64,000 bases of DNA from Raphanus sativus (taxonomy: Eukaryota > Streptophyta > Magnoliopsida > Brassicales > Brassicaceae), in the NCBI RefSeq assembly GCF_000801105.2, contig NC_079512.1:40007848-40071847 (forward strand), read 5' to 3'. Below, one piece after another: positions 1,241 to 56,600 of the stretch (positions are counted from its first letter, which is position 1; every line of letters begins with the position of its first letter). The translations under genes and the position numbers were made by a program. A model generated the notes under the pieces. That model was not told the origin of the DNA. It ran no database searches and saw nothing but the letters and a program-made list of their open reading frames with translations.

Positions 1241-1275
1241 TAAGCACTTGAGATTTTTTTTAAGCACTTGGGATT
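1241..1275 (-). repeat. Tail-only insertion: poly(T) between direct repeats
   Basis: TAAGCACTTGAGATT (1241-1255) recurs as TAAGCACTTGGGATT at 1261-1275, with only T residues between. It resembles the other poly(A) micro-insertions of this window but is the weakest, because the insert has no unique bases and could be a simple duplication. Confidence 0.35.
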
Positions 1276-2090
1276 ATACAAGAGCTATGTAAATGTGCAA
1301 GTTAACTAATCAGATGAGTCATTACATACTGCCACATCTCTCGACTTGGACGTCTTAACGAACACCCTAGTGATTTAGGCTTTTCTGGTTTGTCGTATAC
1401 ATACGAGACTTTGTGGTTAAACTAAATTAGATACTCAAAACAAAACAAATTAATTATCTGACAAAATTTAATATTCATCTCAAGAGAACAGAGCTAAATC
1501 AGCAATTATTAACATATTGCCACTAGACTATCTAATTAAAGCCTATTTTATAAAAAAAAACATTAATTTCACATAATAAATTAATTAGTCAATCATTTAA
1601 AGTCAATTTCGATGATAGTCCTTATTGTAAAACTAAAATTATAATTTAGATGCATTTTAGTAAAATCAAATAAGACGAGTTATTCTCTTGTGTCCCCTTT
1701 CCGTCTTGTTTAAGTAGTTGGTGAGAAGTGGTAACATGCGCATTGAGTTGTCAAAGATAAACATGCATAGATGATACATATATAGAACTACACAACGTAG
1801 TACGTACATACATAAATATGTAAGGATTATCCACATACACTTTTTATAAATGTAAATTACTTTATCACATTTTTGTTCTTTTTGTTAATGGATCTTTCTG
1901 GACTAAAATAAAATCCAAAACAATTGTAATAGTCCACATCTCACACTGGAGAGAGACGAGAAAGGGAAGAAGGTAAAATTAAAAGAAGTTGAAAAACAAA
2001 TGGATTGAAGAAGGGAGAAGAGGAATATAAAACATTTTTTTGTTTGATAAAACTAATAAAGTCATTTTAAAATTAATAGAAATGTTAAAA

Positions 2091-2140
2091 AAAAATTGAT
2101 ATTCTGTGGTGTTCAAAAAAAAAAAAAATTGATATTCTGT
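2091..2140 (+). repeat. Tail-only retroposon-like insertion
   Basis: The direct repeat ATTGATATTCTGT ends at 2107 and again at 2140. Between the copies sit GGTGTTC and about 13 A (2108-2127). A few unique bases plus poly(A) inside a target-site duplication is the form expected of a target-primed insertion truncated almost completely at its 5' end. Confidence 0.55.
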
Positions 2141-2159
2141 ATGTGGCCACTGTAGACTC

Positions 2160-2435
2160 GCGCCACACACTTACCGTGAGACTTCCGACGAATTCTTGTC
2201 AACTTTTCTGATTATTTACCGGGAACAAACTTTTTTGCGTATATAAAGTTTCCGAGAAATTTACAACAACTCATTCCAAGAAACTACCGACAAAACCTTT
2301 ATGTCGGAACTTTCCGATGAGATTCAAACAAAAATTCTGTAGTTCTCGGAAAATTCTCGGCAATCTATCAGTATTTTTCTGACAAAAGGGGTTCTCGGAA
2401 AGCTTCGTCGGAGGATACACATTTTTCTTGTAGTG
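2160..2435. mobile_element. CACTA (En/Spm-like) terminal fragment
   Basis: The segment ends in TTTTTCTTGTAGTG (2422-2435), the inverse of the CACTACAAGAAAAA terminus typical of CACTA transposons. Inside are many short repeats around TCGGA/TCCGA (for example at 2185, 2315, 2345, 2395), the usual subterminal repeat pattern. The matching opposite terminus was not found, so this is a truncated or solo end upstream of the peroxidase gene. Confidence 0.6.
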
Positions 2436-2699: not shown

Positions 2700-2798
2700 A
2701 ATAGCCCAAACTGTACCATACCCTTCATTTAAATTATTCTTTCTATTTACTATAAGAAGGGTCTACCTTCAAACCAAAACTTAAAATTATAATTAGCC
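2700..2798 (+). promoter_or_regulatory. Core promoter and 5' UTR of the peroxidase gene
   Basis: A TATA-like TATAAGAAGG lies at 2751-2760, about 40 bp before the start codon. This leaves a short leader with CAAAACTTAAAA before ATG 2799. The transcription start itself cannot be seen. Confidence 0.5.
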
Positions 2799-4321
2799 AT
2801 GGAGAAGAAGACTAACCAGGCCATCTTCTCTATATTTTCTCTTCTTCTGTTTTCTTCATGTGTCTCTGCTCAGCTTCGGACTGGTTTCTACCAGAGATCA
2901 TGCCCGAACGTTGAAAGCATTGTCCGTAACGCCGTCCGTCAAAAATTTCAGCAGACTTTCGTCACCGCTCCAGCTACTCTCCGGCTCTTCTTCCACGATT
3001 GCTTCGTTCGCGTACGTAACAGTATCCATATGTCACATATATATAGGAATTCAAATCATTTTCTTAATCTCTAACGTACAAGCAACAATTCCTTTTATTA
3101 ACAAATGTTGAATGTATGAGAATTGTTAGATGTTACTTTATATATATACATTCTTCAAACGAAACATTATCATAGATTCATAGGTGCTTAATTTCTTATA
3201 TTATATGAATATCTAGGGATGTGATGCTTCGATAGTGTTAGCATCTCCGTCGGAGAGAGATCATCCAGATGACATGTCATTAGCTGGAGACGGATTCGAC
3301 ACGGTGATAAAGGCGAAGCAAGCCGTTGATAGAGATCCTAACTGCCGCAACAAAGTCTCATGTGCTGACATTTTAGCTCTCGCTACACGTGAAGTCGTCG
3401 TTTTGGTATTAATATAACCTTCTCTAGTTACATATATTATTATAGTTTTCATTTCTCTTTATTGTCTTAATATTATATAATGTCCGAGGTATAATTCGTT
3501 TTTTGGGTGAAAAGCTACTCATATTATAATGTGACACCTCTTGTGGCAGTTTGTAATTATTTTATACAAGCAACAACAGATCATATAGTCCGAATAAAAA
3601 TGAATTATTGATATTTCATATCACTATCATGATTATAATAATCGGGTTAAACTAAATTTGCAGACCGGAGGACCGAGCTACCCGGTTGAGCTAGGGAGGA
3701 GAGATGGCAGATTATCTACGAAGGCAAGCGTACAACACAGTTTGCCACAACCTGGTTTTAACCTAAACCAGCTCAACACCATGTTCAACCGTCACGGTCT
3801 CTCCCAAACCGACATGATCGCCCTCTCAGGTACGACAGAACAAAACTAAACCAATCTCTTTTTTGTTCTTAAAACCGAATCTTTATGGTTGATAAAATGT
3901 TATTGTAATATCAGGAGCGCACACTATCGGATTCGCACATTGTGGGAAATTCTCAAAGCGAATTTACAACTTTAGCCCTAGAACCCGTATCGACCCGAGT
4001 TTGAACCGTGGCTACGCGTTTCAGCTTAGGCAGATGTGTCCCATTCGTGTTGACCCAAGGATAGCGATCAACATGGACCCAACATCGCCACGTACTTTCG
4101 ACAACGCTTACTTCAAGAATCTCCAACAAGGGAGGGGTTTGTTTACGTCTGATCAAGTCTTGTTCACGGACCAACGGTCTAGAGCTACGGTTAACTTGTT
4201 TGCCAATAGTGAAGGAGCTTTTAGGCAAGCTTTTATCACGGCCATCACGAAACTTGGTCGTGTCGGGGTTAAAACTGGTAATGCTGGTGAAATTCGAAGG
4301 GATTGTTCACGTGTTAATTAG
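2799..4321 (+). CDS. PRX45: Class III secretory peroxidase, PRX45-like
   Basis: A haem peroxidase that uses H2O2 to oxidise phenolic substrates in the apoplast or vacuole. Four exons: 2799-3011, 3217-3405, 3664-3829 and 3915-4321, all introns GT-AG. They give 324 residues, the family's usual length and its classical four-exon pattern. The N terminus is a signal peptide (hydrophobic core about residues 8-22, likely cleavage after CVSA, residue 24). The distal site LRLFFHDCF holds Arg62 and His66, and the proximal haem ligand is His192 in [11 protein letters not shown]. Conserved cysteines include C35, C68 and C73. The sequence closely resembles Arabidopsis At4g30170 (PRX45); its paralogue At2g18980 (PRX16) is the alternative. 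The adjacent bHLH146- and AHA2-like genes support the chromosome 4 assignment. No defects seen. Confidence 0.9.
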
Positions 4322-4368: not shown

Positions 4369-4424
4369 ATTTCGTATTGCTTTTGTAATAAGGAGTTCAA
4401 ATGTGTCAAATGGAAAATTCAATT

Positions 4425-4469
4425 AATAATAAGATGGTTTAATAAAAAAAAATAATAATAAGATGGTTT
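4425..4469 (+). repeat. Tail-only insertion in the peroxidase 3' flank
   Basis: AATAATAAGATGGTTT (4425-4440) is repeated at 4454-4469, separated by an A-rich 13-bp block (4441-4453). It has the form of the other poly(A) micro-insertions, though the low-complexity repeat makes slippage possible. Confidence 0.4.
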
Positions 4470-5239
4470 TATTTCTCTTCTCTTCTCCTTTTGTCTTATG
4501 TTTATATCTGATTTATTACATATGTTTTCTTTTTTTTTATGAGAAAAATAAAATTATTAGGTGTCTAAGCTAGATAATAATAACATTTATTTGGATGTTC
4601 ATTCTAATTATTTTATTTTCGGGATTTGGATGCTCACTATTATGTCACTATCTTGCTAATTCAGCAAAAGGATATAGAAGCCAAAAATCAAAGTCTAGTA
4701 AGATAACTATATTTCGGATTTAGTTTTCCGGAGAACAAACTGTTTATTTTATTTCATAAACTAACCAAAAGGTGCAACAACTAAAATATCTTCATCATCG
4801 AATGATGCAATATACTCGATGTTTTTAATATTTCATATCATTGTTGTCATGCATTTTTATTTCTCGATTACTTTTGTATGTTGCTTTTACATTCGGCATA
4901 TTGGACTGCGGGTTTGTTGCGTTTGTAATGGAGAGGCCCATCCTCTTGGCCCAGTACTAATATGTTTACTGCATATTTTTTCCGGTTAATATATTTTTAT
5001 ACGGGAATTCGGCCAAACAAAACCTCAACTTTGCACGAATTACCAAAACAAACATGAACTTTTGGGCTGACCAAAAAAATACTAAACTTTTATTGACTTT
5101 CTAATTAATTAACAATGTTTTCGTTGACTTGCCAATTTAGCACGCCGTTAGTTAACTTCGTTTATTGTTGTCGTTAAAGTAAAACGATGTCGTTTCAAAT
5201 GAGATGAAACGACGTCGTTTTATATGATTTGAAAAATAA

Positions 5240-5315
5240 AAACAAGTAACCTCCTGGATTCGAACTCAGGTTGGGTAGGACATATGACAAGGTATTTACC
5301 ACTGGGCTAGTGACA
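5240..5315 (-). repeat. tRNA-like segment (A and B boxes), left arm of the element
   Basis: On the minus strand this reads as an A-box-like block near 5301-5312, then a B-box-like GAGTTCGAATCC near 5255-5266. It mirrors the copy at 5764-5837. It is a possible relic of a tRNA-derived SINE or captured tRNA gene. The spacing is tRNA-like, but an acceptor stem was not verified. Confidence 0.4.
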
Positions 5316-5763
5316 CTTTCAATGTACTTAATAACATATTTAAATTTGTTTGGTACTCATTGAATATATTTTTTTTTTCTAAAAACCTAAAAATATCTTT
5401 AAAATTTTAAAATTGAAAAAGGAATATTTTTATAAAATTAATTTTGAAATTAAAATAAAAATAATTTTTTTCTTAAAAAATAAAAATTAAAAAATTCAAT
5501 ATCCAGCTTAAAATCGAAATTTAAGAAAAAATAAAATTTTATTTTATAAAAAAAAATTCGATTTTTAAGCTAGATATTGAATTTTAAAGATTTTTATTTT
5601 TTTAAGAACTTTTTTTTTCATTTTAATTTCAAAATTAATTTTATAAAAATATTTCTTTTTTCAATTTTTTGAAATTTTAAAGATATTTTTAAGTTTTTAG
5701 AAAAAAAATTTATATTCAATGAGTACCAAATAACATTAAATATGTTAGTAAATACATTGAAAG

Positions 5764-5837
5764 TGCCACTAGCCCAGTGGTAAAACACCTTGTCATATTT
5801 TCTACCCAACCTATGTTCGAATCCAGGGGGTTACTTG
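5764..5837 (+). repeat. tRNA-like segment (A and B boxes), right arm of the element
   Basis: TAGCCCAGTGG (about 5770-5780) fits the Pol III A box TRGCNNAGYNGG, and TGTTCGAATCC (about 5814-5824) fits the B box GGTTCGANTCC except for one base. Separation is about 35 bp, as in tRNA genes. It is inside the fold-back element, not a convincing functional tRNA gene. Confidence 0.45.
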
Positions 5838-6096
5838 TTTTTATTTTTCAAATCATATAAAACGACGTCGTTTCATCTCATTTGAAACGACGTCGTTTTA
5901 CTTTAACGCCAACAATAAACGATGTATGTTAAGTTAACTGACGGCGTGCTAAATTGGCAAGTCAACGAAAACATTGTTAATTAATTAGAAAGTCAATGAA
6001 AGTTTAGTGTTTTTTTGACCAGCCCAAAAGTTCATATTTGTTTTGGCAATTCGTGCAAAGTTGAGGTTTTGTTTGGCCGAATTTCCATTTTTATAC

Positions 6097-8338: not shown

Positions 8339-8836
8339 TGTACGGTACACCTTTTAAGGTTAGGAAAACTAATTTTCTAAATAAATTACTATTCATATTA
8401 AAAAAAGGAAAATCGGATTTTTGAGACTATATAAATATATGTCTAAGGATTTGTAAGTTATAATCACTTTAATAATAAAAAAAAACCTAAATGGATATTT
8501 GATTCAATACATTTTGTTCTCTATTCTCCTTCTACCCTAATTTGTAGCCGTTCACAACAAAATTTGTTTTTAATATATGTTTATATCAAGTATTCCTAAT
8601 TAAAACGAGATTAAACATGAAATTATTCTAAACATGCATGCTAATATTCGCCATATACTTCGCTCTAGTTTCATATATTTGTTTTTACATTTCTATGTCA
8701 TTGTTTCCCTCTTGGTTGCTTTCATTTCTTTTGTTTTCAACTATAAAATTACTCTACCTTTATATTAGGAAAAAATGTTGAATTAGTATACATATAGATC
8801 TAAAGTGCAAAATGCATCTATATGGTTAACGTAAAC

Positions 8837-8886
8837 AACTAAACACGGGTTGTTTTACCAAAAAAAAAAAACTAAACACAGGTTGT
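8837..8886 (+). repeat. Tail-only retroposon-like insertion, 17-bp TSD
   Basis: A 17-bp direct repeat (8837-8853 and 8870-8886, one mismatch, core AACTAAACAC) flanks TTTACC plus about 10 A. It is one of the clearest cases of a poly(A) tail with only a handful of unique bases inside a long target duplication. Confidence 0.65.
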
Positions 8887-11347: not shown

Positions 11348-11385
11348 CCATGTCTAGTAGTTTTTTTTCTCAACCATGTCTAGTA
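11348..11385 (-). repeat. Tail-only retroposon-like insertion
   Basis: CCATGTCTAGTA occurs at 11348-11359 and 11374-11385, with a 14-bp insert that reads TTGAG plus about 8 A on the minus strand. Confidence 0.5.
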
Positions 11386-11452
11386 ATTTTCATTTAATAT
11401 ATATTTTAGTTTGTTAAGAATAATTCTTCTGTATATCGTGTTTTGGGGATTA

Positions 11453-11548
11453 AAGTTCTGAATATAGTCTTTTTTTTTTCTCTTTTGAGAAAAGGCATAA
11501 GTTCTGAATTTAGTTCTTTTTTTTTGTAAAAAAAGTTCTGAATATAGT
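11453..11548 (-). repeat. Two tail-only insertions in the same target, three TSD copies
   Basis: AAGTTCTGAATATAGT is present three times (11453-11468, 11499-11514 with one mismatch, 11533-11548). The first 30-bp insert reads ATGCCTTTTC... ending in poly(A) on the minus strand. The second, 18 bp, reads TTTTTAC plus poly(A). Two independent hits at one site, or one insertion followed by a local duplication, would both give this. Confidence 0.6.
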
Positions 11549-11587
11549 TAGAACGTAAAATGTAAAACGACTTCCATTTCATGTCAA

Positions 11588-11632
11588 CAGTTACCCTTTT
11601 TTCTTTTTGAAAAAAAAAAGCAGTTACCCTTT
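11588..11632 (+). repeat. Tail-only retroposon-like insertion
   Basis: CAGTTACCCTTT at 11588-11599 and 11621-11632 flanks a 21-bp insert of CTTTTTG followed by 10 A and G. Confidence 0.55.
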
Positions 11633-11786
11633 ATTCAACATAGACTATATAATCAATGTAAACCTACACAAAGAAAGTCATATTAGTAGACCAAAAATCC
11701 GTGACAAATAAAACATATTATAATATAACCATAGTCAATGACCATAGTTTAATCTCAAACTTTATTTTGGCCGGAGTGTTGCCCGG

Positions 11787-12416
11787 TGTTGGGATTCGAG
11801 ACTACTTCAGAGACTACCTCAGGAATTACGTCAGCGAATATTTCAGGGACTTCGTCAGGATTTGGTGATGGAAATCAAACAAGATCGCATAACTTAAACC
11901 AAGACAAGGACGTCATATTAGGAAAAGAAAATATCACTTTATTCAAGGTGATAGGTTCCTGGAAATATTACTTTCATGGAGATATGGAAGTTGCAAGTAT
12001 TTTGGAATATTTCCTAATAGGTTTATGGAAAGGGGTGAATGCCCTAATCCAACTAGGTTAATGTAATAAACTCCTACTATATAAGAGGAGCTCGTGTGCA
12101 CTCTTCTCTGGAACCTTGGCAAGGTCCGAAAGGTCCAAAAGTGACCAAGCAAGCCGGCTTGTGGCTTGTGTGAGAGAGAGAGAGAGAGGTGCTATGTCTT
12201 TGTACTTGAGATTATAGTGAATTGCCTCATTGCCAGGCCCCAGGGACGTAACCACGTTTAGGTGAACCCTGGGATATCAAATTCTTGTGTCTATCTTCTA
12301 TAATTCCGTGTTCTTCTTCTGTTCTCCATAGATCTACAAACTCATACTTTCTAACGTACTACGACAAGTGCATCAGAAAGTGCTTCAGCGAGTTTGTGTG
12401 GTGAGTTTTCCCAACA
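11787..12416 (+). repeat. 5' LTR of the copia element
   Basis: Starts TGTTGGGATTCGAG and ends TTTTCCCAACA, with TG...CA boundaries. It contains the U3/R promoter region; a TATATAAGAGG at about 12078-12088 is a likely TATA box. Confidence 0.9.
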
Positions 12417-12419
12417 AAG

Positions 12420-12431
12420 TGGTATCAGAGC
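12420..12431 (+). other. Primer-binding site (tRNA-iMet)
   Basis: TGGTATCAGAGC, three bases after the 5' LTR, complements the 3' end of initiator methionine tRNA, the standard primer of plant copia elements. Confidence 0.85.
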
Positions 12432-12436
12432 CTTAG

Positions 12437-12892
12437 GTGGTGTTAATCTCAATACCTAAAGTAAGGATTGAGGTGGAGCGGTTCGATGGGAAGGAAGATT
12501 TCTCGTTGTGGAAGAAGAGGATGCTTGTGCATCTGTCTGTCCTTGGTCTAAAGGATGTATTAGAAGAGTCCGGGTCACCTTCTGTCTCAGCGATGAAGAA
12601 GGATGAAGACGAGGATGTTTACAGGGAGCGGTTGGTGAAAGAGGAAGCTGGAAGGCTTGGAAGATCAGAGACGGTGATGAATCTGATCAGTCTCAGTGTG
12701 GGAGATCATGTGTTAAGAAAGAACGAGTTGTGTACTTCAACGGCTTCTTCATGGTCTATGCTGGAGATGTTATTTCTTTCCAAGACTCTACTGGATATAA
12801 TTCACTTGCATCACATATTATATATCTTCAAGATGGTTGATACTCGGAGTATAAGAAGATCAATGGCTTCTGGAAGATGGTGTCTTACCTAG
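12437..12892 (+). pseudogene. copia gag remnant
   Basis: The frame encodes a capsid-like (UBN2/gag) start with VERFDGKEDFSLWKKRM, the typical copia gag motif, and an LKDVLEE segment. Similarity fades after about residue 120 and the frame ends prematurely; the following gag sequence continues in other frames. It lacks a clean start codon directly after the primer-binding site. Confidence 0.7.
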
Positions 12893-13126
12893 CAAGCGTG
12901 AATGTAACTGTGTCAGAGGAGGTGCAAGGACGATTCTGTTGTTTGAATCTGCTACCTTCACAGTTCGGCTCTCTCAAGGAAACACTTAAGTACGGCAAGG
13001 ATGTTTTGTCGTTGTAAGAGGTGACGGTGCTGCAAGGTCTAAAGATCAAGATCTTTAAACCTCTAGGGTTTCACATGATGATGGTGAAGGATATTATGCT
13101 AGAGGCGAGTCTGAGAAAAGGATCTT

Positions 13127-13330
13127 GTGAGGAAGGATATGGTCGGTTCTAGATCAAGCTCAGGGTCTAGAATTACCTGCTGGTTCTGCAAGAAGCAGGG
13201 GAACACCAGGAATAACTGTTATGTTACAAAGAAGAAGTATGACAAAGAAGCTGAAGTAGTGGGTGTGATAGATCCTGGTCCAGAGGGTGATGCACTATCG
13301 GTAACAGATATGCAGCGTCATGATAAGTGA
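13127..13330 (+). pseudogene. copia gag zinc-knuckle remnant
   Basis: The motif CWFCKKQGNTRNNC corresponds to a CCHC knuckle (C-x2-C-x4-H-x4-C), but the histidine is replaced by asparagine, so metal binding should be lost. Surrounding frames are broken. Confidence 0.7.
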
Positions 13331-13565
13331 GTGATTTGTTCTGGATGTTCTTACTACAGGTCGTGTAGGAAGGATTGTTTTTCACATGGTTCAAGAGCTG
13401 ACTTCAGGGAAAGTACTTCTTGGTAATGATTGCGCGGTAGGAGTGCAATGGATTGGTACAATCAACAAAGCTTATGGAGATTCGGTTAAGACACTCACAA
13501 GAAGTCAGGTATATTCTGGAATTAAGAAGGAACCTGGTATCTAATGGAATCTCGGTTTATTAAGC

Positions 13566-13802
13566 TTGGAGCATATTGGCAGACGTGGGAAGACTAAGTT
13601 TTACAAGCATGGTAAGCTAGCTCTTCAAGGAACTGTGTCTCAGTCATTGTACCTGTTAGATGGAGAAACTGCATCAGGTGGAATATATAGCAGTGGCAGA
13701 AAGAAACCATCTATGGATGAGACAGTCTTGTGGCATAGACGTCTTGAGCACATGAGTATGAAGAATCTACAGGTTCTTGCCCCGGAAGGGGGTGATCGAT
13801 AA
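13566..13802 (+). pseudogene. copia gag-pre-integrase remnant
   Basis: The frame contains LWHRRLEHMSMKNLQVL, the hallmark gag_pre-integrs segment before the integrase zinc finger. Shortly after it the integrase reading is disrupted, and most of the catalytic core is deleted before the reverse-transcriptase region. Confidence 0.7.
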
Positions 13803-14160
13803 GGAGGACGATTGGAGTTTTGGAGTTCTGTGAGAGTTTTGGGAAACATGATACATGTAAAGCTCTCAGGTATGTACATGCGGTTTTGTGTGTGGATCTC
13901 CAAATGTAACTTCAAGTCTGGTGTGGATGTTACCCTCAAGGTGACCTTGCGAATGGTACCATGTGGTCTTGTTGTCGAAAGTCTTCTTAACCAAGGGAGT
14001 TAAGCGGCGTGTTCCGTTGGTACAGACGGCGGTGCAAGATGGGTATGTAGTATTTTTTGCTGGAAGGTTGAAGAATCACTGGTTTAGGTGGTCCTTGTTT
14101 TAGGAGGGTGGTTATAATACTGTAATCCACGGTTTTATATTATTGATGAGGACACTACGT

Positions 14161-14336
14161 CAGACCAGAAGTTGAGACTTCAGGTGGAGCTGTTGACGAA
14201 ACGGCTGATATAGTTGCTGACGTAGATGTTGAACAAGGTGACACTGCATCAGACCGGAAGTTGAGACTTCAGGTGGAGCTGTTGACGAAACAGCTGACAT
14301 AGTTGTTGATGCAGATGTTGAGCAAGGTGAAAGTCT
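14161..14336 (+). repeat. Tandem duplication (two units of about 89 bp) inside the copia element
   Basis: Units beginning CAGACC(A/G)GAAGTTGAG start at 14161 and 14250 and are about 90 percent alike. They lie between integrase and reverse-transcriptase remnants. The unit length is not a multiple of three, fitting a decayed coding region. Confidence 0.6.
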
Positions 14337-14519
14337 TGAAGGATGTCAGTTAGGAATGGACAGAGTATGAAGAAGAACAGTGCCACCTGCACAGTACTCT
14401 GAATCCGAGGATGTAGCAGGTTTTATGCTATATGTAGCTGATGAGGTATGTGTTGAAGAACTTCGAGACAATCATGGAGCGATGAGCAGCAAAATAAATT
14501 GGTCAATGGGATGAATCAT

Positions 14520-14930
14520 GGGGGTGAAGAGATGACTTCACTGGATAAGAACCAAACCTGGAAGCTTGTGAGAAGGCCTGAGAAGCGTGAAGCGATTGGC
14601 TGCAAGTGGATGTGTTAAACTGAAATCTGGTACAACTGGTGTTGAGAAGCCTGGATTCAAGGCTTGGTTAAGTTGCAAAGGGATATTCTCAGAGAAAGGG
14701 AATTGATTATCAAGATGTGTTCTCACCCATCGTGAGACATGTATCTGTGAGGTTTTCTGCTACAGAGAACTTTGACTTTGTGCAACTTGGTGTAAACCGG
14801 CCTTTCTTCATGGAGTATTTGAAGAATGGATTTACATGAAGCAACCAGAAGGATTTCAGCTTGATGGAAGAGAAGATCACGTGTGTCTACTTCATAAGAG
14901 GAGTATGTCAACACCTGCTGGTGTACACTT
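14520..14930 (+). pseudogene. copia reverse-transcriptase remnant
   Basis: Frames encode NQTWKLVRRPEKREAIGCKW (the usual start of copia RT) followed, after a stop and frame changes, by pieces matching the QDVFSPIV and MKQPEGF regions. There is no intact polymerase; the catalytic YVDD region was not found. Confidence 0.7.
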
Positions 14931-15048
14931 CAGAGCGTCTGCTGTAGTAGATGATGAAGCAGAGATGAATGGATGATATTCCATGTACGAGGTGTGATCT
15001 GTTGTATGGGTTGGTTAGCAGGTTTATGAGTAAGTCTGGGATGGTTCA

Positions 15049-15357
15049 TTGGACTGCGTGGGAGTTGAGATACCTCACGGGAACACAAGATCAGACTATG
15101 CTTCAGAGAAGAATGAAGTGTTTATGGTTGAAAGATTTTGTGATTCGGATCTTTTGCTCCTGTTTTTGGACAAAATATTGTTGATCTCGGATTATGTTTA
15201 CATGGCTGGTGGTGATACAATCAGCTGGAGATCAAGACTACAAACTGTAGTGACTCTGTCAACGACTAAAGCGGAGTGTATGGCGCTGGTTGGAGGTGTC
15301 ATAGAAGTGGCGCTGGTAGGAGGTGTCATGGAAGGAATGTGGTTAAAAGTGGCTTAG
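15049..15357 (+). pseudogene. copia RNase H remnant
   Basis: Contains GGDTISWRSRLQ and TLSTTKAECMAL, matching the copia RNase H C-terminal motif (SWRSKLQ...LSTTEAEYMAL). A short duplication of the segment around VGGV follows, then the frame stops. Confidence 0.75.
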
Positions 15358-15677
15358 TGTAAGAGCTTGGATTCAAGCAAGACACGGTGAAGATATCGTG
15401 TGACTCTCAACGTTCATTGTTTCCAGTAAATAACAATGTGGATCGTGAGAAGGCTAAGCACGTCAGTAGAAAGGTGCACTTCATCAAGGATATTGCTCAA
15501 GGGTGATGCAAGTGTGTAGAAGTTAAATACTTCAAGGGATCCTGCTGATATTGTAACCAAGGTGGTTCCTGAGTTTGAGGAAGCTGTTAAATTTCTTGGG
15601 ATGGTCGAGAGCATCGACTTCATCTGGTAAAGCACGAGTTTGCTTAACCTAAGTAGTGGATCATGTTTGATGTCATC

Positions 15678-15688
15678 AAGGTGGAGTT
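15678..15688 (+). other. Polypurine tract of the copia element
   Basis: AAGGTGGAGTT immediately precedes the TG of the 3' LTR, the usual primer position for plus-strand synthesis. Confidence 0.7.
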
Positions 15689-16316
15689 TGTTGGGATTCG
15701 AGACTACTTAAGAGACTACCTCAGGAATTACGTCAGCGAATACTTCAGGGACTTCGTCAGGATTTGGTGATGGAAATCAAACAAGATCGCATAACTTAAA
15801 CCAAGACAAGGACGTCATATTAGGAAAATGAAATATCACTTTATTTAAGGTGATATGTTCCTGGAAATATTACTTTCATGAAGATATGGAAGTTGCAAGT
15901 ATTTTGGAATATTTCCTAATAGGTTTATGGAAAGGGGTGAATGCCCTAATCCAACTAGGTTAATGTAATAAACTCCTACTATATAAGAGGAGCTCGTGTG
16001 CACTCTTCTCTGGAACCTTGGCAAGGTCCGAAAGGTCCAAAAGTGACCAAGCAAGCCGGCTTGTGGCTTGTGTGTGAGAGAGAGAGAGGTGCTATGTCTT
16101 TGTACTTGAGATTATAGTGAATTGCCTCATTGCCAGGCCCCAGGGACGTAACCACGTTTAGGTGAACCCTGGGATATCAAATTCTTGTGTCTATCTTCTA
16201 TAATTCCGTGTTCTTCTTCTGTTCTCCATAGATCTACATACTCATGCTTTCTAACGTACTACGACAAGTGCATCAGAAAGTGCTTCAGCGAGTTTGTGTG
16301 GTGAGTTTTCCCAACA
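15689..16316 (+). repeat. 3' LTR of the copia element
   Basis: Same boundaries as the 5' LTR. Differences seen include 15716 region A for C, the AAAATGAAAT block near 15827, and a shorter AG run near 16075. Confidence 0.9.
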
Positions 16317-25768: not shown

Positions 25769-25836
25769 AAAATAACAATTTTCTATTGGTTGGTGAACCT
25801 TCTTAAAGGTGAACCCATGAAAAAGTCTTTTGATAT

Positions 25837-40426: not shown

Positions 40427-40447
40427 AAAAGTTAGACAGGCTTGTTA

Positions 40448-41312
40448 CCAGAGTAGGCAATCTTCTAACTAGACACTCTCTCTCTAGAACTCTCTCTGCC
40501 ATCTCTCTAGACTCTCAGACTTGATCTTCGCCTCCGGCCGGTGGATTTGGCTTTTTGCCCCCGCCAGTCCGGCCAAAGCTTTCTTCTCTTTTTTGCTTCC
40601 ATATTTCGTTTTTCCGACACGGTTTCTTCAATCTTTGTACCGTGTTTTTTTGATTCCGACTACCCACCGTCTACGTTGGTGGTGGTTCGGCTTTGGTGTT
40701 CCGGGAGACGGTGAGTTTGCCATCGTTTATCGCCGGCGGTTGAATCTGGGACCGTACCGTTTCTTTTCCGGTGGCGGTTGCCGGCTTTCGGTCCTCGTGG
40801 AAGGTTTCGAGCTGTTGAAAAGGTGTTTGATGGCCGAGTTCGGAGGAGATCTCGATGTATCCGATGGAGTCTCTATGAAGGTCGGGCCTTGGCGTGATTG
40901 ACTCCGATTTCTATATCCCCAATACTGTTGTTGGTGATGAAATCTGGTGGTCGCAGTTTGTTGTCCCGGTGTGTCCGGTGAGTGATTCAGTTTCGATTAC
41001 AGTGTCGACCTCTTCATGGGGAGGAAGTGGGTGATTTGCGTTCCGGCGAGATGTCGGTCTTTCGGTCCCGGCGGCGACCACCAACCGCTAAAGATGACGA
41101 AGCGTCATTCTTCAACACGTGTCCCGTGGTGTTGCGGTTTCCACACACGTGGGGTGGGACGTGGAGAGTGATGGGGCTTTGGGTCTCAATTTTTGGGTTT
41201 GGTGGTTTGGATCGTGGGTTATCAGATTAGAATATGTGTATGTTTGGGCCGTTTTTGGGCCGTGTACTGTTCTTTATGTTTAATAAATATTTCAGATGGC
41301 AAAAAAAAAAAA
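40448..41312 (+). mobile_element. LINE-like retroposon, internally deleted or non-autonomous
   Basis: About 865 bp ending in ATTTCAGATGGC and a poly(A) run (41301-41312), flanked by a target duplication whose core is GTTAGACAGGCTTGTTA (40431-40447 and 41313-41329), up to 21 bp with the A's. The right arm has the empty site near 45040. The body is GC-rich, CTCTCT-rich at the start and has an open frame (40521-40901) without any domain I recognise. There is no reverse transcriptase. An L1-type 5' region joined to a 3' end is the best guess; a processed transcript is the alternative. Confidence 0.75.
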
Positions 41313-41329
41313 GTTAGACAGGCTTGTTA

Positions 41330-42365
41330 AACAAAGTTAGTTGTTTTCTATTGGAATTTACGAAAACGAACAGCATTTTTTATAACTTACGACTATGATA
41401 AAGAACTGGAAAGTGTAGAAATATTTACCGACCAAGTCAGCAGAAAGTGATAAGTCGGTGCAAGAGTAAATATTTCTATTAAACATTACGTACATGTTAC
41501 ATGTAGTTCTTGTAAAACACGTTATCTAATTGTTTTCATTTTTACCAACATATTTCTGCGTTAACCAGGACAACATTTATTAAAATTTATAGATATACTA
41601 TCTATTAAATACTATAGATATACAGTATATTTCCAATCCTAGTACTGTAATTCCCAAAATCACAAACTGCGAAAAAAACCCAAAAAGTCAACATCGAACA
41701 AACTAGTGGATGGTCAACTAAAGAGACTAGATGCTGAACTTACAACTAAATGCGACGACAGTGAAACAAAGTATGAAAATCGTTTTTTCAAATATAATCA
41801 AAAGAGGAACTTCAAATGAATTCAATGGGTTGACAAAAAAAAGAATTCAATGGATTCACACATATGTAAAATTAGAGTATCATATTATTAATTATAAACG
41901 TAATTTTCTTGTTTAAGACGTGTAAATTAGTACATAGTTTTCTAGAACCTATAAATTAGTAAATATTTATTTAGAAATTTAAGAGAAATCAAATTGTTAG
42001 GCTGAGCAAACCGTAGCTACCAACACCTCTTTCACAAATGTAATTTATTGTGACGATACTAACCTTTGTCGTACGAATCGTACTAAGACTCTTAAGGACA
42101 AGAGTAATAATTTACTAATTAGCAATTGGCATTTTAGTTTCCAGGAGGGTTGGTGACATTGGACCGTTGTGTCTTTTGGTCAGCCAATCCATACACATAT
42201 GTTAAATACATGTGGATCCACATATACACATGCTTCCATGTGCATGTTCATTAAAATTTCTCTCTTGTAGAGAGACCAAATTGCGGAAGTAACTTGTGGT
42301 GCTGGCTTGGCTTTTATCATTTGACAATGATTCGCAGCTTTCGTAATAAATATAGTGGCTGTAAT
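41330..42365. other. Intergenic DNA at the inner end of the left arm
   Basis: No gene seen. Aligns with 43758-45018 of the right arm. Empty sites of two right-arm insertions lie at about 41333-41344 and 42092. Confidence 0.55.
41818..41853 (+). repeat. Tail-only insertion shared by both arms
   Basis: GAATTCAATGG at 41818-41828 and 41843-41853 flanks GTTGAC plus 8 A (41829-41842). The mirrored copy is at about 44480-44517. Confidence 0.6.
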
Positions 42366-43233
42366 AATCTTTAAAAACAAAACTAATCATATATCATCGG
42401 TTGATTATATTAAAGTAATAACTAAAAATAATGCAATAGTAGCTTTCAAGTTGCAAGCATCATCTTGGATTTATAATAATTCCATTGTAAAATAGTAATT
42501 CATCGTCACAAGGACATGCACCGTGTCTCACGCAGCAAGTTGCAACTCTTCCGCACACACACATACAGACTAGAGTAGAACAGTAGAGTTCATTTTAACA
42601 AACCTTGATTATCTGAGCCAACATCAAACCATATGATACGTTGATTGGTATTTTTTTTTTAAATCATTACATAAACCGGATTTGGTCTAACATAAAAACA
42701 AAAATTGAAGCCCAGTGATATCTATATGCCAGAACACATGAAGCAACTTAAAGATGGTCTTAAGCAAAAAAAAAAAACTTAAAGTTGGAAAAATAAAACA
42801 ACTCCAAGTAAAACTTTGAGCCAAAAAGCATTTCAATTAAAAATAAGAAAATATCAAAAGTACAATTCAACATGGTAGACTCCTAAAAGACCAATACACT
42901 GAATAGATATAACTCTTCTTAGAGTTACTTTAGGTTTTAACACAGAATTGCACATACTCTTTGTGACCAACCACTTTTTTTTTGCACTACTAGAAGAACT
43001 CTTGAACTCCAACATGCAACAAACGTATAAACTTTCTTTGTATGTGTCATCATTTTGCAGAATTTAATTAGGCTATTATATATCTGATGTATTTTAGTAT
43101 TTTACTTGTAAAATGTATGACTTTATATTTTGTAAAATGTATAACGTTATCTTTTGTAAAATAATACGATGACGCCTCCCGCATTTGCTTTGCTAGAGCA
43201 AAAGCTATTGTTTTAGAAGAAATAAATGGATTT
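42366..43233. other. Left-contig sequence beyond the inverted repeat
   Basis: No mirror partner in the window and no gene seen. A poly(A) micro-insertion lies at 42745-42784. Confidence 0.5.
42745..42784 (+). repeat. Tail-only insertion, short TSD
   Basis: AACTTAAAG occurs at 42745-42753 and 42776-42784 around ATGGTCTTAAGC plus about 10 A. The repeat is only 9 bp, so support is moderate. Confidence 0.4.
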
Positions 43234-43333: not shown

Positions 43334-43757
43334 AGGTATCCGAATGTTTATGTCTAACTGATTTTGTGAAAAAATAAAAATATATATTTATTTTTATGTT
43401 TTTGGCTAAAATAAGTGAAATATTTTTTTTAATAGTAATTTTACATATTAATAATGATCAATATATGGAGACATCAATTTGTTTAGATAAGTTTGGAATT
43501 ATAATTTGTTAATATAAATTGATTTTAAATGTAGTGGTAAAATCTGTAAATAAAAAAAATTACAAAAAGGAAATACATAATTTTTTTTAAATGCAATGAC
43601 TAAATGTGTAAATAAAAGAAAATAAATATACTGCTATCCATGTTTCCAAGCAATTCTCATTTAATATTGTTATACATGTTTCCAAACAAATCTTTTTTAA
43701 ACTGCAATTCATGTCTCCAAACACTCCGATTTTGTACTTCAACTTTAATAATATAGA
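43334..43757 (-). mobile_element. Helitron 5' part, cut by the gap
   Basis: On the minus strand it starts with TC at 43757-43756 and is followed outward by T of the host site. The left arm has the uninterrupted site at 42365-42366. The sequence resembles the 5' half of the Helitron at 9875-10910. The 3' end is not in the window, so it lies in or beyond the gap. Confidence 0.55.
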
Positions 43758-44233: not shown

Positions 44234-44985
44234 TAAGAGTCTTAGTACGATTCGTACGACAAAGGTTAGTAACGTCTCAACACATTACATTTGTGAAAGA
44301 GGTGTTGGTAGCTACGGTTTGCTCAGCCTAACAATTTGATTTCTCTTAAATTTCTAAATAAATATTTACTAATTTATAGGTTCTAGAAAACTATGTACAA
44401 ATTTACACGTCTTAAACAAGAAAATTACGTTTATAATTAATAATATGATACTCTAATTTTACATATGTGTGAATCCATTGAATTCTTTTTTTTTTGTCAA
44501 CCCATTGAATTCATTTGAAGTTCCTCTTTTGATTATATTTGAAAAAACGATTTTCACACTTTGTTTCACTGTCGTCGCATTTAGTTGTAAGTTCAGCATC
44601 TAGTCTCTTTAGTTGACCATCCACTAGTTTGTTCGATGTTGACCTTTTGGGTTTTTTTCGCAGTTTGTGATTTTGGGAATTACAGTACTAGGATTGGAAA
44701 TATACTGTATATCTATAGTATTTAATAGATAGTATATCCATAAATTTTAATAAATGTTGTCCTGGTTAACGCAGAAATATGTTGGCAAAAATGAAAATAA
44801 TTAGATAACGTGTTTTACAAGAACTACATGTAACATGTACGTAATGTTTAATAGAAATATTTACTATTGCACCGACTTATCACTTTCTGCTGACTTGGTC
44901 GGTAAATATTTCTACACTTTCCAGTTCTTTATCATAGTCGTAAGTTATAAAAAATGCTGTTCGTTTTCGTAAATTCCAAAAGAAA

Positions 44986-45030
44986 ACAACTAACTTTTTT
45001 TTTTTTTTGACAACATTTACAACTAACTTT
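44986..45030 (-). repeat. Tail-only insertion, right arm only
   Basis: ACAACTAACTTT at 44986-44997 and 45019-45030 flanks a 21-bp insert that reads AAATGTTGTC plus 11 A on the minus strand. The left arm has one uninterrupted copy at 41333-41344, so the insertion and its duplication are directly visible. Confidence 0.75.
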
Positions 45031-46249: not shown

Positions 46250-46298
46250 TACTCTATCCTAAGATCTTTTTTTTTAGCAACTACTCTATCCTAAGATC
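46250..46298 (-). repeat. Tail-only insertion, right arm only, 17-bp TSD
   Basis: TACTCTATCCTAAGATC at 46250-46266 and 46282-46298 flanks GTTGCT plus 9 A on the minus strand. The left arm has a single copy at 39216-39232. Confidence 0.8.
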
Positions 46299-48236: not shown

Positions 48237-48967
48237 TCTAATCTATTAATTTAGGGATTATCTACTATTTGAAGTTCTCATTTAAATTTTGGACTCTTTC
48301 ATAGTTGTTGCTAGAATATATCATGTCTCCTATACAATGCAACATATCAACTTAAATTAAACCAATATTAACCAACATAGATTAGTTAAACCTAACCAGT
48401 AACACTTTTATAATATTTTGGTTAATCTCTTAATATAATTAGATCATATAAAACTGAACCACTCTTAAATCAACGAGTTCCATATCATTCCAGACATAAG
48501 AGAAAAAATATCCGACTCATTTACAACGTAAGCATACAAAGACCATGTATGCTTATGCTCATTGATCTTCCAAAAACCAAATAATTGTGGCATAGACCAA
48601 CATAGGCTCATGTTCGTATCACTAACTTTATTTCCATATATTTACTCTTCACCTACATCATATCACAACATACACAGTTATGCAAGAACATGATTTTTTT
48701 TGTTCAAACAACCAAATAATGGTGGCATATGGTCAGTAGATTTTTTAAATATGTTTTTTATATATTACATTTTACGAGACTATGTGTATAAGTTTTTTTT
48801 TTGAAAAAGGGCATAACTATGTGTATAAGTTAAAAGGTAAAATGTGTGACAAGACAAATTATTATACTAAAAATGAAAGAAGATTAAATACAAACTAACA
48901 ACAAGTAAAACACAAATTATAACACTATTAAATTCTCTATATATTTAATAATATATATATATGTCTA

Positions 48968-51464: not shown

Positions 51465-52290
51465 GATTCTTCTTCGAAACAGGTAACGGTGCTAAGCCCC
51501 GTGTAAAAAAAAAGAATGTAACGGTGCCGTTATATTAGGTGAAGACCCCCGAGTCACACCACCACTTTGTTCTTCTTCTCTTCGTCTCTCATTAAAACAT
51601 AGCTAGGCATCCAATGTAAGTTTCACGCCGGTTATTAAAATAAACACTTAACGGCGTTATAATCTCTAATGGAATAATACAAAATGGATCTAGTTTCTAC
51701 AAGAAGTAGAAGTTCTTTTGGTTTTTAGGAAGAAACACCAACTAAACTGGGTCATGAGTTCGGATACCGGCTCAGAGATCACTATTTTACTAGTTTAGGT
51801 CGATTTCCAAAAAGACGTATGGATCTGGAAATTATAACTCACCAATAATTCTAAAAATACTCGAGTGGATCTATTACTACGTAGTTAGGAGCCTAGTATA
51901 CAAAACATATCGAAACTTTTTCTGCAAAGACTATCATTGAAAATATAATAACATTAACGACGAGTAAAGAAATACTACAAATAATAAAACCCTTAAACAC
52001 ACAATTATTCAAAAGTTCAAAACGCGTGCTTTCCTTTACTCATAGGAACGTCGAAAAAGAGTTGTCACCTTTTGATAGTTTTTTTTTTTTATTTTTTTTT
52101 ATTTTTTTGATAGTTACCAATTGGTTAAAGTAAACTTCGGAAAATGAACATAATCGCCTGCTAAATTTGACACCAGAGATATTTGCCATAAAAGTTTCCT
52201 AATGTATCTCTCTAGTCAAATAAATTCTTTTAAGAATTAACATAAACAAAAAGATAGGCATGTCGTAACTATGACTAATATGTATATGCA
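51465..52290. other. Intergenic right-arm DNA, no gene seen
   Basis: Mirror of about 36290-37290 without the left MITE block. Contains the poly(T) micro-insertion at 52070-52115. Confidence 0.5.
52070..52115 (-). repeat. Tail-only insertion, right arm only
   Basis: TTTTGATAGTT at 52070-52080 and 52105-52115 flanks 24 bp of T interrupted by two single A's. The left arm has one copy at 36435-36445. Confidence 0.6.
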
Positions 52291-52291
52291 T

Positions 52292-52336
52292 TTGTCCCAA
52301 GTCCAATTGTCCCAAGTCCAATTGTCCCAAGTCCAA
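52292..52336 (+). repeat. Three tandem copies of a 15-bp unit
   Basis: TTGTCCCAAGTCCAA is repeated three times. The left arm has a single unit near 36250-36262, so the expansion is confined to the right arm. Confidence 0.75.
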
Positions 52337-52356
52337 GAGAATATTAACTTTCCAAA

Positions 52357-52805
52357 CTAGATTAGGACCCGCCCTAACATGATTTGCAATATTTTAGTTA
52401 TAGTATATGTTATATATAATATCTGTATATAATATTGAATATATTTTTTTGCAATATTTATATATATTTGACATATACATAATATTTTATTAAATATATA
52501 TAATCGGATGGTGTTAAAATTTGTGTTGTACATGTTGTTAGTTTGTATTTAATCTTGTTTCATTTTTAGTATAATAGNNNNNNNNNNNNNNNNNNNNNNN
52601 NNNNNNNNNNNNNNNNNNNNNNNNNNNNNNNNNNNNNNNNNNNNNNNNNNNNNNNNNNNNNNNNNNNNNNNNNNNNNTATCATTCATTTAATATGAAGAT
52701 TAATAATGATTTAAAATGTAGTGTGACTAAGTCTAATAGATAGTCCATTTTTTAAAAAAATCACACATGAATTAGAAGTCATGACTTCTGCTTTAATATA
52801 ATAGA
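52357..52805 (-). mobile_element. Helitron ends flanking an N gap
   Basis: On the minus strand the right side starts TC (52805-52804) and the left side ends TTAGGGCGGGTCCTAATCTAG (terminus at 52357), the same 3' end as the Helitron at 48237-49117. A 100-N gap (52578-52677) separates the halves. In the left arm the two outer flanks are about 3.2 kb apart, so the halves may belong to two different copies joined by the scaffolder. Confidence 0.5.
52578..52677. other. Assembly gap (100 N)
   Basis: A conventional 100-N gap inside Helitron-like sequence, where short-read contigs would be expected to break. Confidence 0.98.
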
Positions 52806-53692
52806 TATGTTTCAGATTTAAATGAAACTATCCATGCTAAAAAGGTCTGTCCAAAAACAAAATCCTTTTATATTACTACAGCTTTGATAAAAAAAATACC
52901 ACTACTAACTACGACAGTTTATTTGGTAAGTTTTTTTTGCCATAAGTTAATCAAAAGAATTATAGTTTGTTACTGATTTCATATGAAAACTGTTTTACAT
53001 TTTAATACTAAAACTATAGAGAAGAAATATTTTAATTCAGTGACTTTCAATTTAAGGAATGTCATGCTCATGTCAATTGCCCAATGCGTTTATAGAAAAT
53101 AAATTTGAAATAAACTAAAAAGTAAAAACTAACGTTCTTTTTTTTTGTCTGAGCATATATATTATAAGTACGAAAGAAGGGAATTTTTTTTTGAACAACT
53201 CATTATACTATTTCCGTTTCATAATATTTGATATTTTGTTTTATTGCACTAAGATTAAGAAACTTATTTTTCTTTAAATTTTTTTATAGATGTAATTTTA
53301 AAATTATTTAACCAATTATAAAATAATGTAAAACCTAATTAGTTAAATAATTTTAATAAAATTAAAATTAACTTTAAAACATTAAAACATAAAATATTTT
53401 ATATTTTGAAACAACTCAATCTTCTAAAACATTATGTAAAAAAAAAAAGAGGGGAACAAGTAACTTTTTGATTATCTCGAGTCGTAGGACGGCATGTGAG
53501 GCCGTACATGGTGCTGGATTATCTGGGTTCCTATATATATGCTTACTTTCACAGAGAAAAACAAGTAAACAGAGATATTTTATTTTGTTAGACTATATAC
53601 ATATATTCGAAATAATCTTTTGGAAAATTACTATTAAATTCTTAATAACATCATTATCGCTACAAACATACAAAGTGCATGTATCCAAGATA
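52806..53692. other. Intergenic right-arm DNA, no gene seen
   Basis: Mirror of the left sequence about 32326-33000 and 29585-29835, without the left Mutator-like and MITE insertions. Confidence 0.5.
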
Positions 53693-56600
53693 TTATCTCG
53701 TGGTTGATTAATAACTTACATATATCTTTGATGTTTATCATATTAATTCAAAATATATATTTAAAAATATAAAAATTCTAAAAAAACCTTTTTGTAGATT
53801 AATAACTATAAATTATTAAAATATCATAATTTTAGTTTTACTAATTTATAGAGTTTTTATTATATTTCGCTTTTCGTTGTGACCATACGCACCAATTAGA
53901 TCATTGCCCCTCGAATAAATACGTCAACATTTGTGTGCTATATATACATTTCCTTTTTATAGAGAAGACTATTACTACGAATCGTGGCGCATATAGTATA
54001 CATAATGATTTAGAACAGCTTTAACATCACTTTCATCATAGTAATATTTGCAGAAATTCACGAATTGTATTAACTAATGAGAAATGTCAAAACCATGAAA
54101 GAGGTACCTTTTCTAAAGTTCTGTAAGGGTCTTCACATCGTACGAAAAATGTTCTGTAAGCTGTACTATAGTAATCATGGAAAAATTCGTACTGTAGAAA
54201 GTGACAAAGATATGTAATTTGATACTAGTTTGTAATAGTGTATAGAATACGTTTGCATTGAAGAGAGAGTTATTTATAGATGAAGAATTTAGAAAAAAAA
54301 AAATCCAAACTAAAAATTAAGAATCACAAGTTATGGGGTTTTCCTCACTGAAACCATTTTGGAAAAGGTTTGTAGCCCTGGCCAATAACAAAAAAATTAT
54401 GACAAAATAACAGAATCATTCAATTAATAATAATAATTTAATTTACGAATCTGTACTTTATGTTAATCAATTAATTTTTAAAAACACGAATAGCTAAGTA
54501 AAGTAAACCATGATCGGACATATTGTCGATTTGGTGAAATTTTAATTTTAACTACTACAGTGATATAAGTCTAAAATACTATCAAAATACTAAGTTTTAT
54601 GTTAATTTTGTAAAATATTTCTTAGACCAAATATCTGTTAACAAACGTGATTGCAAGCTCATAGTCCGTGCTATCATTGTTTCAATCAGCTATAATGTTC
54701 ACAGTAATTATTAGGTTTTTGGAATGATCACCACTATATAAACTGCGTTCCATGATTATTGTCAGTTAATCAAGATTTAAAGATTATCTCACGAAGTACT
54801 CGAGCTAGACAAATAATCGGCTAGGCACGTTGTTACATATAATAGAGATCCAAATTTAAAAGTATTTTGTACATTTTCGATATATCTAATATATCATGAA
54901 GTCAATCTCTAGTATATACAAAAAATAACTGATTTTTTTTTCAGTGCAGGTTGTAAACAACCGAGACAAATCAAAGAGAGGAAAATAACTAGTCAAAATG
55001 AAGACTTTTAACTTAAATGAAAGGGCAGTTTTTGAAAAAAATGAATGGTTGCAGACATGCAGATGCGTTTTAAAAGGTCAACAAATGAGTTTTCGATCAT
55101 GTACTGGGGCGACCGTAAACTCGGTGATTGTTTAGGACTGGCCTAGTGATTATGTCTGGCTATTCGAAAGTATCTCAAGTATAATTAGAAATTGCACCGC
55201 TGCTCCTATTCAAAACTTAAAAAACGTAAGGAATAAATGACGAACTTCTATTATTGTGGGACCCATAACAATCAAAAGTCAATTTTCACAGGGAACAAAT
55301 TTAATTAACACTATAAATTATTTATTCAATTAATTTTCCGATATTATAAATAAAATGCTATCAACAACATGTGCATCGTTCCCGTTGCTGACCTTGCCAT
55401 GATGCACCTTGGAAGGGCCAATTTTTTCATTACCGCCCGTTTGGGCCACAATCACGACTATTAAATGCATATATTTTCTCTTTAGAAAATTGAAGTATTC
55501 CACATACTCAATAATTTAATTTCTGAAACCCATCCAAGGTGATTCCTAGTCAACGCAGAATCCGACATATTGAGTAACTCTACTGTGGTATACGTAGACC
55601 CGCTAATTAGTTACCATCCACAATTATAAATTAGAAGTCCTAATTGAAAACTTAAAAGATTATACTAATATAAAGGATTTATGCAAATTCATGTACTACC
55701 ATATATGTTTGATCGGGAATATCATGATATTCACAGATTTAATATCATGATAATCACAAATTTAATATAGTATCATGGTTTCACTCGTTGACTTAGTTAG
55801 AGTAATCCTAAAAATATTTATTACCGATTTCGAAAGTAGAATTTGTTCAAAACAGGCTGATAAAAACAAAAATCGGTATATCAGCAAACCTGTTAGAATT
55901 GCACATCAAATTTTTTTTTAAATAACATTGATATATAAAAGATTACAAGCAAAATTTAATTGTTAATTAACTATAGGTTGGAAGCACATAACAACGTCTA
56001 AAATTAACAATTTTAAGATATTAATATAAAATTAACAAACTAATTAGATCTCCTCGTAAGATGAATAGTTTTGCTAACAGACATTTTTGTCAAAACTTAC
56101 AGATAGATATATTAGTGTTTGGTTTGCAGAAATTATGTGAGAAATATGGGCCATAATTTTTTTTTTTTTTGTCAACTATGGGCCATAATTTAGTCGTCGT
56201 ATGGTTGAGAAAGAAAAAGAAAAGCAAAGTCGAAGTAATCCAAATTTCTTTAGAACTAGACGTACGGACCTAAACCATTTTTAAAAAATAATATATTTCT
56301 AGTTGAAAGTTTCAGAAAAAATAGATAGAATAAAATACATAGAACCAAATAGGTGGCAGGAGAAAAATAATTAATAGTAAGAGTATACATTAAGCACCAA
56401 GACGTATTTTGCCTCCTGTCTAATTATTTATTTCCTGACGTAATGTAATGATTCACTATTTCACTGGGAGGAATAACTCTTTGGATCTTTTAAAATATCA
56501 AAAGATATTCTGCAAATCAACTTTCTCTTATAAGCTACCACTTACTCTTTTAGGATCCATTTTTATAACAGGTTTACAGAAAAAAAGATCCATTTTCATA

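Follow-up and report, generated by a model that had tools for sequence, protein, structure and literature searches.

Insertions that consist of a poly(A) or poly(T) stretch have been described in humans among the insertions that depend on the endonuclease of LINE-1 (long interspersed nuclear element 1). These simple poly(A) insertions account for 3 of 48 listed pathogenic insertions (Chen et al. 2005, as cited in PMC3219598), and the authors of PMC3219598 read a case of their own as possibly a severely truncated element. Here we describe inserts of this kind in radish, in a 64,000-nucleotide stretch of the Raphanus sativus genome (contig NC_079512.1, positions 40,007,848 to 40,071,847; the whole stretch is referred to as the window). 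Each consists of a run of A residues, with or without a short piece of sequence 5′ of it (the head), lying between two copies of a target site duplication (TSD), and we consider it likely that they arise by target-primed reverse transcription by a LINE of the L1 type, with one subclass stopping at the hexamer GTTGAC next to the tail. Judged from the available portion of PMC3219598, they differ from the human insertions in three respects: new human tails are 60–178 bp whereas the A runs of the window events are 8–14 long; the human class is 3 of 48 insertions whereas the window holds 20 tail-only events against one clear bodied insert; and no shared head comparable to GTTGAC is reported there.

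Among plants, Arabidopsis Sadhu elements have a poly(A) tail, TSDs of 7–16 bp with a T followed by an A-rich TSD start, and clean empty sites, and their 5′ truncation has been termed abortive retrotransposition (PMC2848041); however, Sadhu copies as presented in the available text retain a recognisable body, whereas the radish tail-only inserts have none. The L1-like retrocopies of dicots likewise have a poly(A) tail, a TSD and a TTAAAA-like target, and Arabidopsis accessions carry absence alleles with a single target copy, but these are copies of gene mRNAs with bodies, and the available part of PMC4838847 makes no mention of tail-only inserts. Crucifer short interspersed nuclear elements (SINEs) of the SB families have poly(A) tails and TSDs, and the L1-clade LINEs of crucifers also have poly(A); the available part of a review names no LINE as partner of the crucifer SINEs, and for Arabidopsis it reports poly(A) as the only feature proposed to be common to SINEs and LINEs (PMC3747384). 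The radish SINE-like and LINE-like elements described below, in contrast, share GTTGAC before the tail.

We searched the window for A runs of at least eight that are directly followed by a sequence repeated upstream of the run, with no more than 30 nt between the two copies. Such repeats were found at 22 of the 100 A/T runs of this length at a score of at least 9, whereas a control in which flanks were swapped gave a mean of 0.46 and a maximum of 2 (100 repeats); at scores of at least 11 and 13 there were 19 and 12 matches, against flank-swap means of 0.10 (maximum 1) and 0.15 (maximum 2). The first-pass annotation of this stretch had listed about 19 tail-only sites, and all 19 coordinates, representing 20 events, are among the 22 matches; the others are the partner at 44475-44516 of one listed event, and a weak match at 43565-43628. 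Order-3 Markov sequences (n = 8) contain 0 to 2 A-run repeats at a score of at least 12, against 17 observed, and the class is thus far from equally frequent in randomised sequence, as measured by flank swaps and Markov sequences rather than by a dinucleotide shuffle as such. Among matches whose head is 3 nt or longer, 21, 18 and 12 (at scores 9, 11 and 13) have the head located after the first TSD copy and before the A run, whereas the mirror arrangement accounts for 3, 0 and 0 (7, 3 and 1 if headless matches are counted); that is, the poly(A) abuts the 3′ TSD copy with fixed polarity, in 18 versus 0 cases at score 11. Heads in the 20 window events range from 0 to 19 nt, with no recognisable element body.

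On the plus strand there are inserts with the heads GGTGTTC (2091-2140; TSD of 17 bp), AAT (4421-4469; TSD of 20 bp with one mismatch), TTTACC (8834-8886; 20 bp, two mismatches), TTTTTG (11588-11636; 16 bp, one mismatch), CAGTGAC (33466-33502; 11 bp), AAGTTAC (33503-33555; 18 bp) and TCTTAAGC (42745-42788; 13 bp, one mismatch). Minus-strand inserts have the heads TTGAG (11348-11388; 15 bp, one mismatch), GTTAC (17626-17669; 15 bp, two mismatches), TTGACC (25714-25768; 20 bp) and TATGCCCTTTTTC (48779-48831; 16 bp). Also on this strand is a nested pair, an insert with a head of 19 nt (11453-11514) and its partner with the head TTTTTAC (11499-11549), which together represent two different inserts and three TSD copies at a single target. 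The weakest member is headless, with six net A and a TSD of 14 bp with one mismatch (1242-1275, minus strand). The insert at 48779 probably rides in a repeated element and was copied along with it, because a near-identical insert with the same TSD and head is present at position 7968 of locus L024. The region from 11348 to 11636 contains four inserts in 290 bp, and a terminal G is present between the A run and the TSD at 11499, 11588 and 40044.

The window contains a large inverted duplication, with arm A at 18073-43233 (plus strand) and its counterpart, arm B, at 43334-64000 (minus strand), which provides a comparison of filled and empty sites. The arms (18073-43233 versus 64000-43334) differ by 3.0% mismatches over 15,612 aligned columns. 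A gap of 100 N lies no more than a few hundred bases from the axis of the duplication, two more gaps are at roughly matching places, and elsewhere, on a contig that we denote C1, the same insertion site occurs twice in two instances (L031/L032 and L033/L034, 74 and 56 kb apart). Because of the gap near the axis and these repeated sites, the arrangement is probably two haplotypes scaffolded back to back, which is more likely than a true palindrome. Eleven listed events are inside the arms, and sequence is present in both arms for six of them, the other five having no partner sequence.

Two of the six comparable events are filled in both arms. These are the insert at 40044-40091 (minus strand; head TGCCCTTTTTAC, TSD of 13 bp) and that at 41818-41853 (plus strand; GTTGAC-A8, TSD of 11 bp), whose partner at 44475-44516 (minus strand), recovered by the search as well as by arm comparison, has A10. 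The remaining four are present in arm B, whereas arm A has the empty site in each case; all are on the minus strand. The first, at 44986-45030, has the head AAATGTTGTC and a TSD of 12 bp, and its empty site is near 41333; the second, at 46250-46298, has the head GTTGCT and a TSD of 17 bp (empty near 39216); the third, at 52070-52115, is a weak member comprising an A-rich insert of 24 bp in which the tract is interrupted by T, with a TSD of 11 bp (empty near 36436); and the fourth, at 56145-56191, is GTTGAC-A11 (A14 including three A of the TSD) with a TSD of 15 bp (empty near 26270). Compared with the sequence expected for a single TSD copy, with 12 bases on each side, the four empty sites are identical at 35/36, 40/41, 34/35 and 38/39 bases, and there are no intermediate states at any of the six sites. 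The stepwise slippage that the first-pass annotation had named as a refuting outcome is therefore not seen, and all four differing sites are clean, within two arms of one genome. Among 11 clean arm differences of 15–60 bp an automatic count finds three tail-only inserts, to which the insert at 44986, masked by the aligner, should be added; the counts leave out a further difference of 28 bp, at 26617, which shows A9 and a repeat that is only imperfect.

A preference of the nick at the TSD start, which the first-pass annotation had raised as a check, is only partly visible in the window, where the A run across the TSD start averages 2.40 versus 1.14 (P = 0.003) and a T precedes the start in 13 of 20 events versus 9.7 expected (P = 0.11). 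It is clear when 67 independent events are pooled by TSD (16 from the window, 19 from sampled stretches and 32 from GTTGAC loci, the latter two described below): a T precedes the TSD start in 50 of 67 versus 31.0 expected, and the mean A run at the start is 2.13 versus 1.06, and none of 20,000 draws attained either value. The TSD begins with two or more A in 75% of the pooled events versus 26% of the background, although the size of this A effect is an upper estimate because detection favours TSDs with leading A. TSD lengths in the pooled events are 11 to 23 bp with a median of 16, the lower bound of 11 bp being a consequence of the score threshold.

To what extent the class is a general feature can be judged from the genome assembly (433,372,886 bases in 6413 contigs), in which the window lies on the contig denoted C2. 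We sampled twenty 10-kb stretches at round positions on contigs C1 and C2, and in these 200 kb found 20 inserts at score 11 among 207 A runs, with a control mean of 0.20 and a maximum of 2 (50 repeats). Five of these are headless and 15 have heads of 3 to 20 nt, with heads of at least 3 nt in 15 cases versus three in mirror arrangement. The density is 10 per 100 kb in the sample versus 19 in the 64 kb of the window, and extrapolation of the sample to 433 Mb gives about 43,000 inserts (Poisson range about 26,000 to 67,000), a figure that rests on two contigs and counts haplotig duplicates twice.

The heads are not all arbitrary. C is the last base of 13 of 19 window heads (P = 0.0002), and a set of 18 window heads are more alike than matched controls (P = 0.0006). 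Wherever eight A follow GTTG[ATC]C, GTTAC, TTGACC or TTTACC in the window, a TSD flanks the site (8/8 cases), these motifs having been picked post hoc and the count including one arm-partner pair. In the whole genome GTTGAC-A10 is present 690 times, versus 64 for a reversed control. We examined 88 of the 690 places in listing order rather than as a random draw (48 of 56 listed on C1 and 40 of 44 on C2), and found a TSD within about 100 nt at 23 of 48 C1 places (control mean 0.57, maximum 3) and 13 of 40 C2 places (control 0.75, maximum 5). Of 28 independent events at score 11 with heads of up to 30 nt ending in GTTGAC, 19 have exactly this hexamer and four have CGTTGAC; the remaining five comprise the heads ATGGGTTGAC and AAGTTGAC, a 27-nt head, and two cases (L050 and L065) with a double GTTGAC-A(n) unit inside a single TSD. 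The C2 batch also includes two shorter heads, GAC and TGAC, from which the TSD may have absorbed letters, as well as single heads of 11 and 71 nt. When 6-mer echoes were counted mechanically at 52 unresolved sites, a broad rise appeared at 6–13 nt, but overlap was uncorrected and the count is not used here.

The hexamer is also found at the ends of longer elements. A SINE-like element of 117, 118 and 118 nt with poly(A), its own TSD and matching flanks is present at L001, L048 and L067, with its 3′ part also in L071, and it ends with GTGACCA-GTTGAC-A(n). By eye it contains box-like sequences, GTAGCCAAGTGGC and GGTTCGACCCC, that may correspond to boxes A and B of RNA polymerase III promoters. 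Its 3′ end can form two hairpins, the last directly before AGTTGAC. A LINE-like element of about 2.6 kb at L069, with a 16-bp TSD, ends with GAAATA-GTTGAC-A(n), and L070 matches it over 426 bp (98.6% identity) and 770 bp (99.2%). The L069 reading frame matches RVT_3 with E = 0.036, below the Pfam cut-off, and has 25 protein relatives; those with names are from Brassica, Raphanus or Eruca, two are without a name, and two are named as RNase H type-1 domain-containing. A hairpin before GTTGAC was considered as a general cause of the stop and rejected, as the L069 end has no comparable fold.

Among GTTGAC places without a short head (up to 11 nt), AATGAA occurs no more than 26 nt before the hexamer in 13 of 57. 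The motif is rarer both at the 100 A runs of the window (4; P = 0.0004) and at the 31 places with a short head (0; P = 0.002); it was picked post hoc, and the counts include haplotig duplicates. If AATAAA is added, the figures are 17/57, 11/100 and 3/31. Loci L097, L104 and L108 represent another family, as judged by eye. Places without a short head look like the ends of 3′ untranslated regions from several families with hardly anything in common beyond the hexamer. GTTGAC-A(n) is thus a terminus common to different elements, found on the SINE-like element and on LINE-like ones whose bodies are unrelated, and the tail-only subclass corresponds to the terminus alone. The first-pass annotation had viewed the inserts as copies aborted within a few bases of the tail; in the GTTGAC subclass, however, the short 5′ piece is not an arbitrary remnant, since longer elements have it as their 3′ terminus, and the stop is stereotyped.

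We can outline a route in which an L1-type LINE enzyme would nick the target at T|AA, the nicked target would serve as primer at the poly(A) tail of a template RNA, and the enzyme would copy the tail and a short piece preceding it (0–19 nt in the window), after which end joining would leave a target duplication of 11–23 bp. GUUGAC beside the tail may be the site at which the enzyme enters, with synthesis often ending once the hexamer has been copied, either because the enzyme does not escape from the site to which it binds or because the template is a short 3′ remnant of an RNA, from which it runs off; the double units in one TSD favour run-off with a jump to a second template. Headless events and those with other heads may fit the same route starting from other RNAs. 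The LINE-type target-primed origin proposed from the first reading is supported by the TSDs, the polarity, the nick bias and the empty sites, while the LINE enzyme itself is the presumed agent.

Several observations weigh against this interpretation, besides the listing-order choice of GTTGAC places and the overestimated A effect already mentioned. There is no TSD within about 100 nt at 25 of 48 and 27 of 40 GTTGAC-A10 places. An exact GTTGAC head is present in 2 of 20 window events (41818 and 56145) and 0 of 20 sampled ones; other heads are commoner, and GTTGAC therefore explains one subclass. The heads of 27 and 71 nt are intermediate truncations. An empty arm could also reflect a later deletion between TSD copies, and the direction of change is therefore not proven. 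Finally, ARAGORN called no tRNA in L001, L048 or L067, and no intact LINE reverse transcriptase was recovered among the loci examined.

The alternative that fares best is a variant of this interpretation and compatible with it: that decay or cleavage of LINE or SINE RNA yields a real, short GUUGAC-poly(A) RNA that is copied to its end without any abort. The sharp 5′ end, the two cases of double units in one TSD and the extra junction C in 4 of 28 events all suit such a template, the C being untemplated on this account. However, CGTTGAC is also found at the bodied loci L043 and L066, and the additional C may instead have been templated by such relatives; we regard a short RNA as possible but doubtful.

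Alternatively, tail-only inserts could be the short end of a continuous length distribution produced by ordinary 5′ truncation of LINEs and SINEs, with no special stop. Truncated Sadhu copies with TSDs are documented in the available text of PMC2848041, heads of 8, 10, 11, 27 and 71 nt occur at GTTGAC places, and the window has seven repeats with bodies of 38–167 nt at score 11, above a control of 0–1; of these, the nested pair at 11453 makes up two, the other five are in AT-rich or self-repetitive stretches, and they were not counted. Most of the length data point the other way. Against the 20 window events with heads of 0–19 nt there is a single clear bodied insert, a poly(A) retroposon of 853 bp with a TSD of 21 bp (40427-41333, plus strand). 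In the sampled 200 kb there is no excess of bodies of 31–3000 bp at score 12 (8 versus a control mean of 9.2); this control was shuffled within 10-kb stretches, which keeps some true pairs and so inflates the control's own 0–30 nt class (14 observed, 4.2 in the control). In addition, 19 of the 28 GTTGAC heads of up to 30 nt have the same 5′ end. A smooth truncation series is thus not supported by most of these data, the seven window repeats excepted, and we consider it rather unlikely.

It is much less likely that the inserts are patches from the repair of staggered double-strand breaks, in which filling of the overhangs yields a tandem duplication and the filler between the copies is A-rich by chance. 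The window also has more short-spaced direct repeats assigned to the category with no A run than the Markov sequences (28 versus 0 to 3), and a 28-bp arm difference (39160/46381) is one such repeat; three of the 28 (11453, 40044 and 45385) are misclassed, being class members or an arm partner, and many others sit in AT-rich arrays at about 30–32 kb. The excess over the control indicates that other duplications exist in the region and counts against the exclusivity of the tail-only class. Break repair does not, however, account for the fixed polarity (18 versus 0 at score 11), the T|AA start, or the recurrence of GTTGAC with a constant 5′ end. Nor are the heads clearly templated within 150 bp, there being no clear excess of matches to 5-mers (14 of 17 versus 11.5 expected; P = 0.13) or 6-mers (5 of 17 versus 4.7; P = 0.53), and filler from a nearby template was not supported. 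Growth of a poly(A) microsatellite by slippage beside a tandem duplication can be dismissed with near certainty since, although the tails at 41818 and 44475 differ by two A and tails therefore do slip after insertion, the four empty alleles lack second TSD copy, head and tail together, with no intermediate at six compared sites.

Other features of the window are of note. The 853-bp retroposon is present in arm A only, where it adjoins the empty site of the 44986 insert, and is missing from arm B; its reading frame has three homologue candidates, none significant. In size and build it is reminiscent of Sadhu elements. An 884-bp insert at 24944-25828, also confined to arm A, is bounded by the 9-bp repeat TTTTGATAT, with GGGTTCACC/GGTGAACCC close to its ends, and it harbours the tail-only site at 25714. 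Fragments of a peroxidase gene (PF00141) occupy 2793-4318, with the tail-only insert at 4421 about 100 bp beyond the end of the last peroxidase reading frame, and a long palindrome at 5003-6086 is self-complementary at 89%. A long terminal repeat (LTR) element at 11787-16316 has ends that are 98% identical and copia-type gag fragments, one of them below the Pfam cut-off, and the product of a reading frame at 17863-18348 shares 94% identity with a protein of Brassica carinata, other relatives being named bHLH146 or At4g30180. No match to Rfam at the gathering threshold was obtained within the window.

Simple poly(A) insertions are already known in humans; what seems novel here is the dominance of tail-only inserts, together with the shared hexamer and the fixed stop. 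We found no description of tail-only inserts in plants, or of a shared GTTGAC end, in the open-licence literature, where the hexamer itself was not a search term; the 118-nt element may be a named family, or its end may already have been described, in subscription papers on crucifer SINEs.

We tentatively suggest, as a possibility that falls somewhat short of probable, that the LINE reverse transcriptase of radish recognises a terminal GUUGAC by the poly(A), that this links LINEs to a SINE family without an identified partner, and that synthesis frequently stops behind the site, so that tens of thousands of minimal inserts with this and other heads would be a record of attempts at retrotransposition. 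If this is right, the genome would contain a numerous class of insertions that offers nothing for repeat annotation to match and yet contributes a sizeable share of mid-size insertions and deletions; the shared terminal hexamer would provide a testable answer to the question of which LINE moves the crucifer SINEs; and the fixed stop would give a window on how the initiation of target-primed reverse transcription succeeds or fails.

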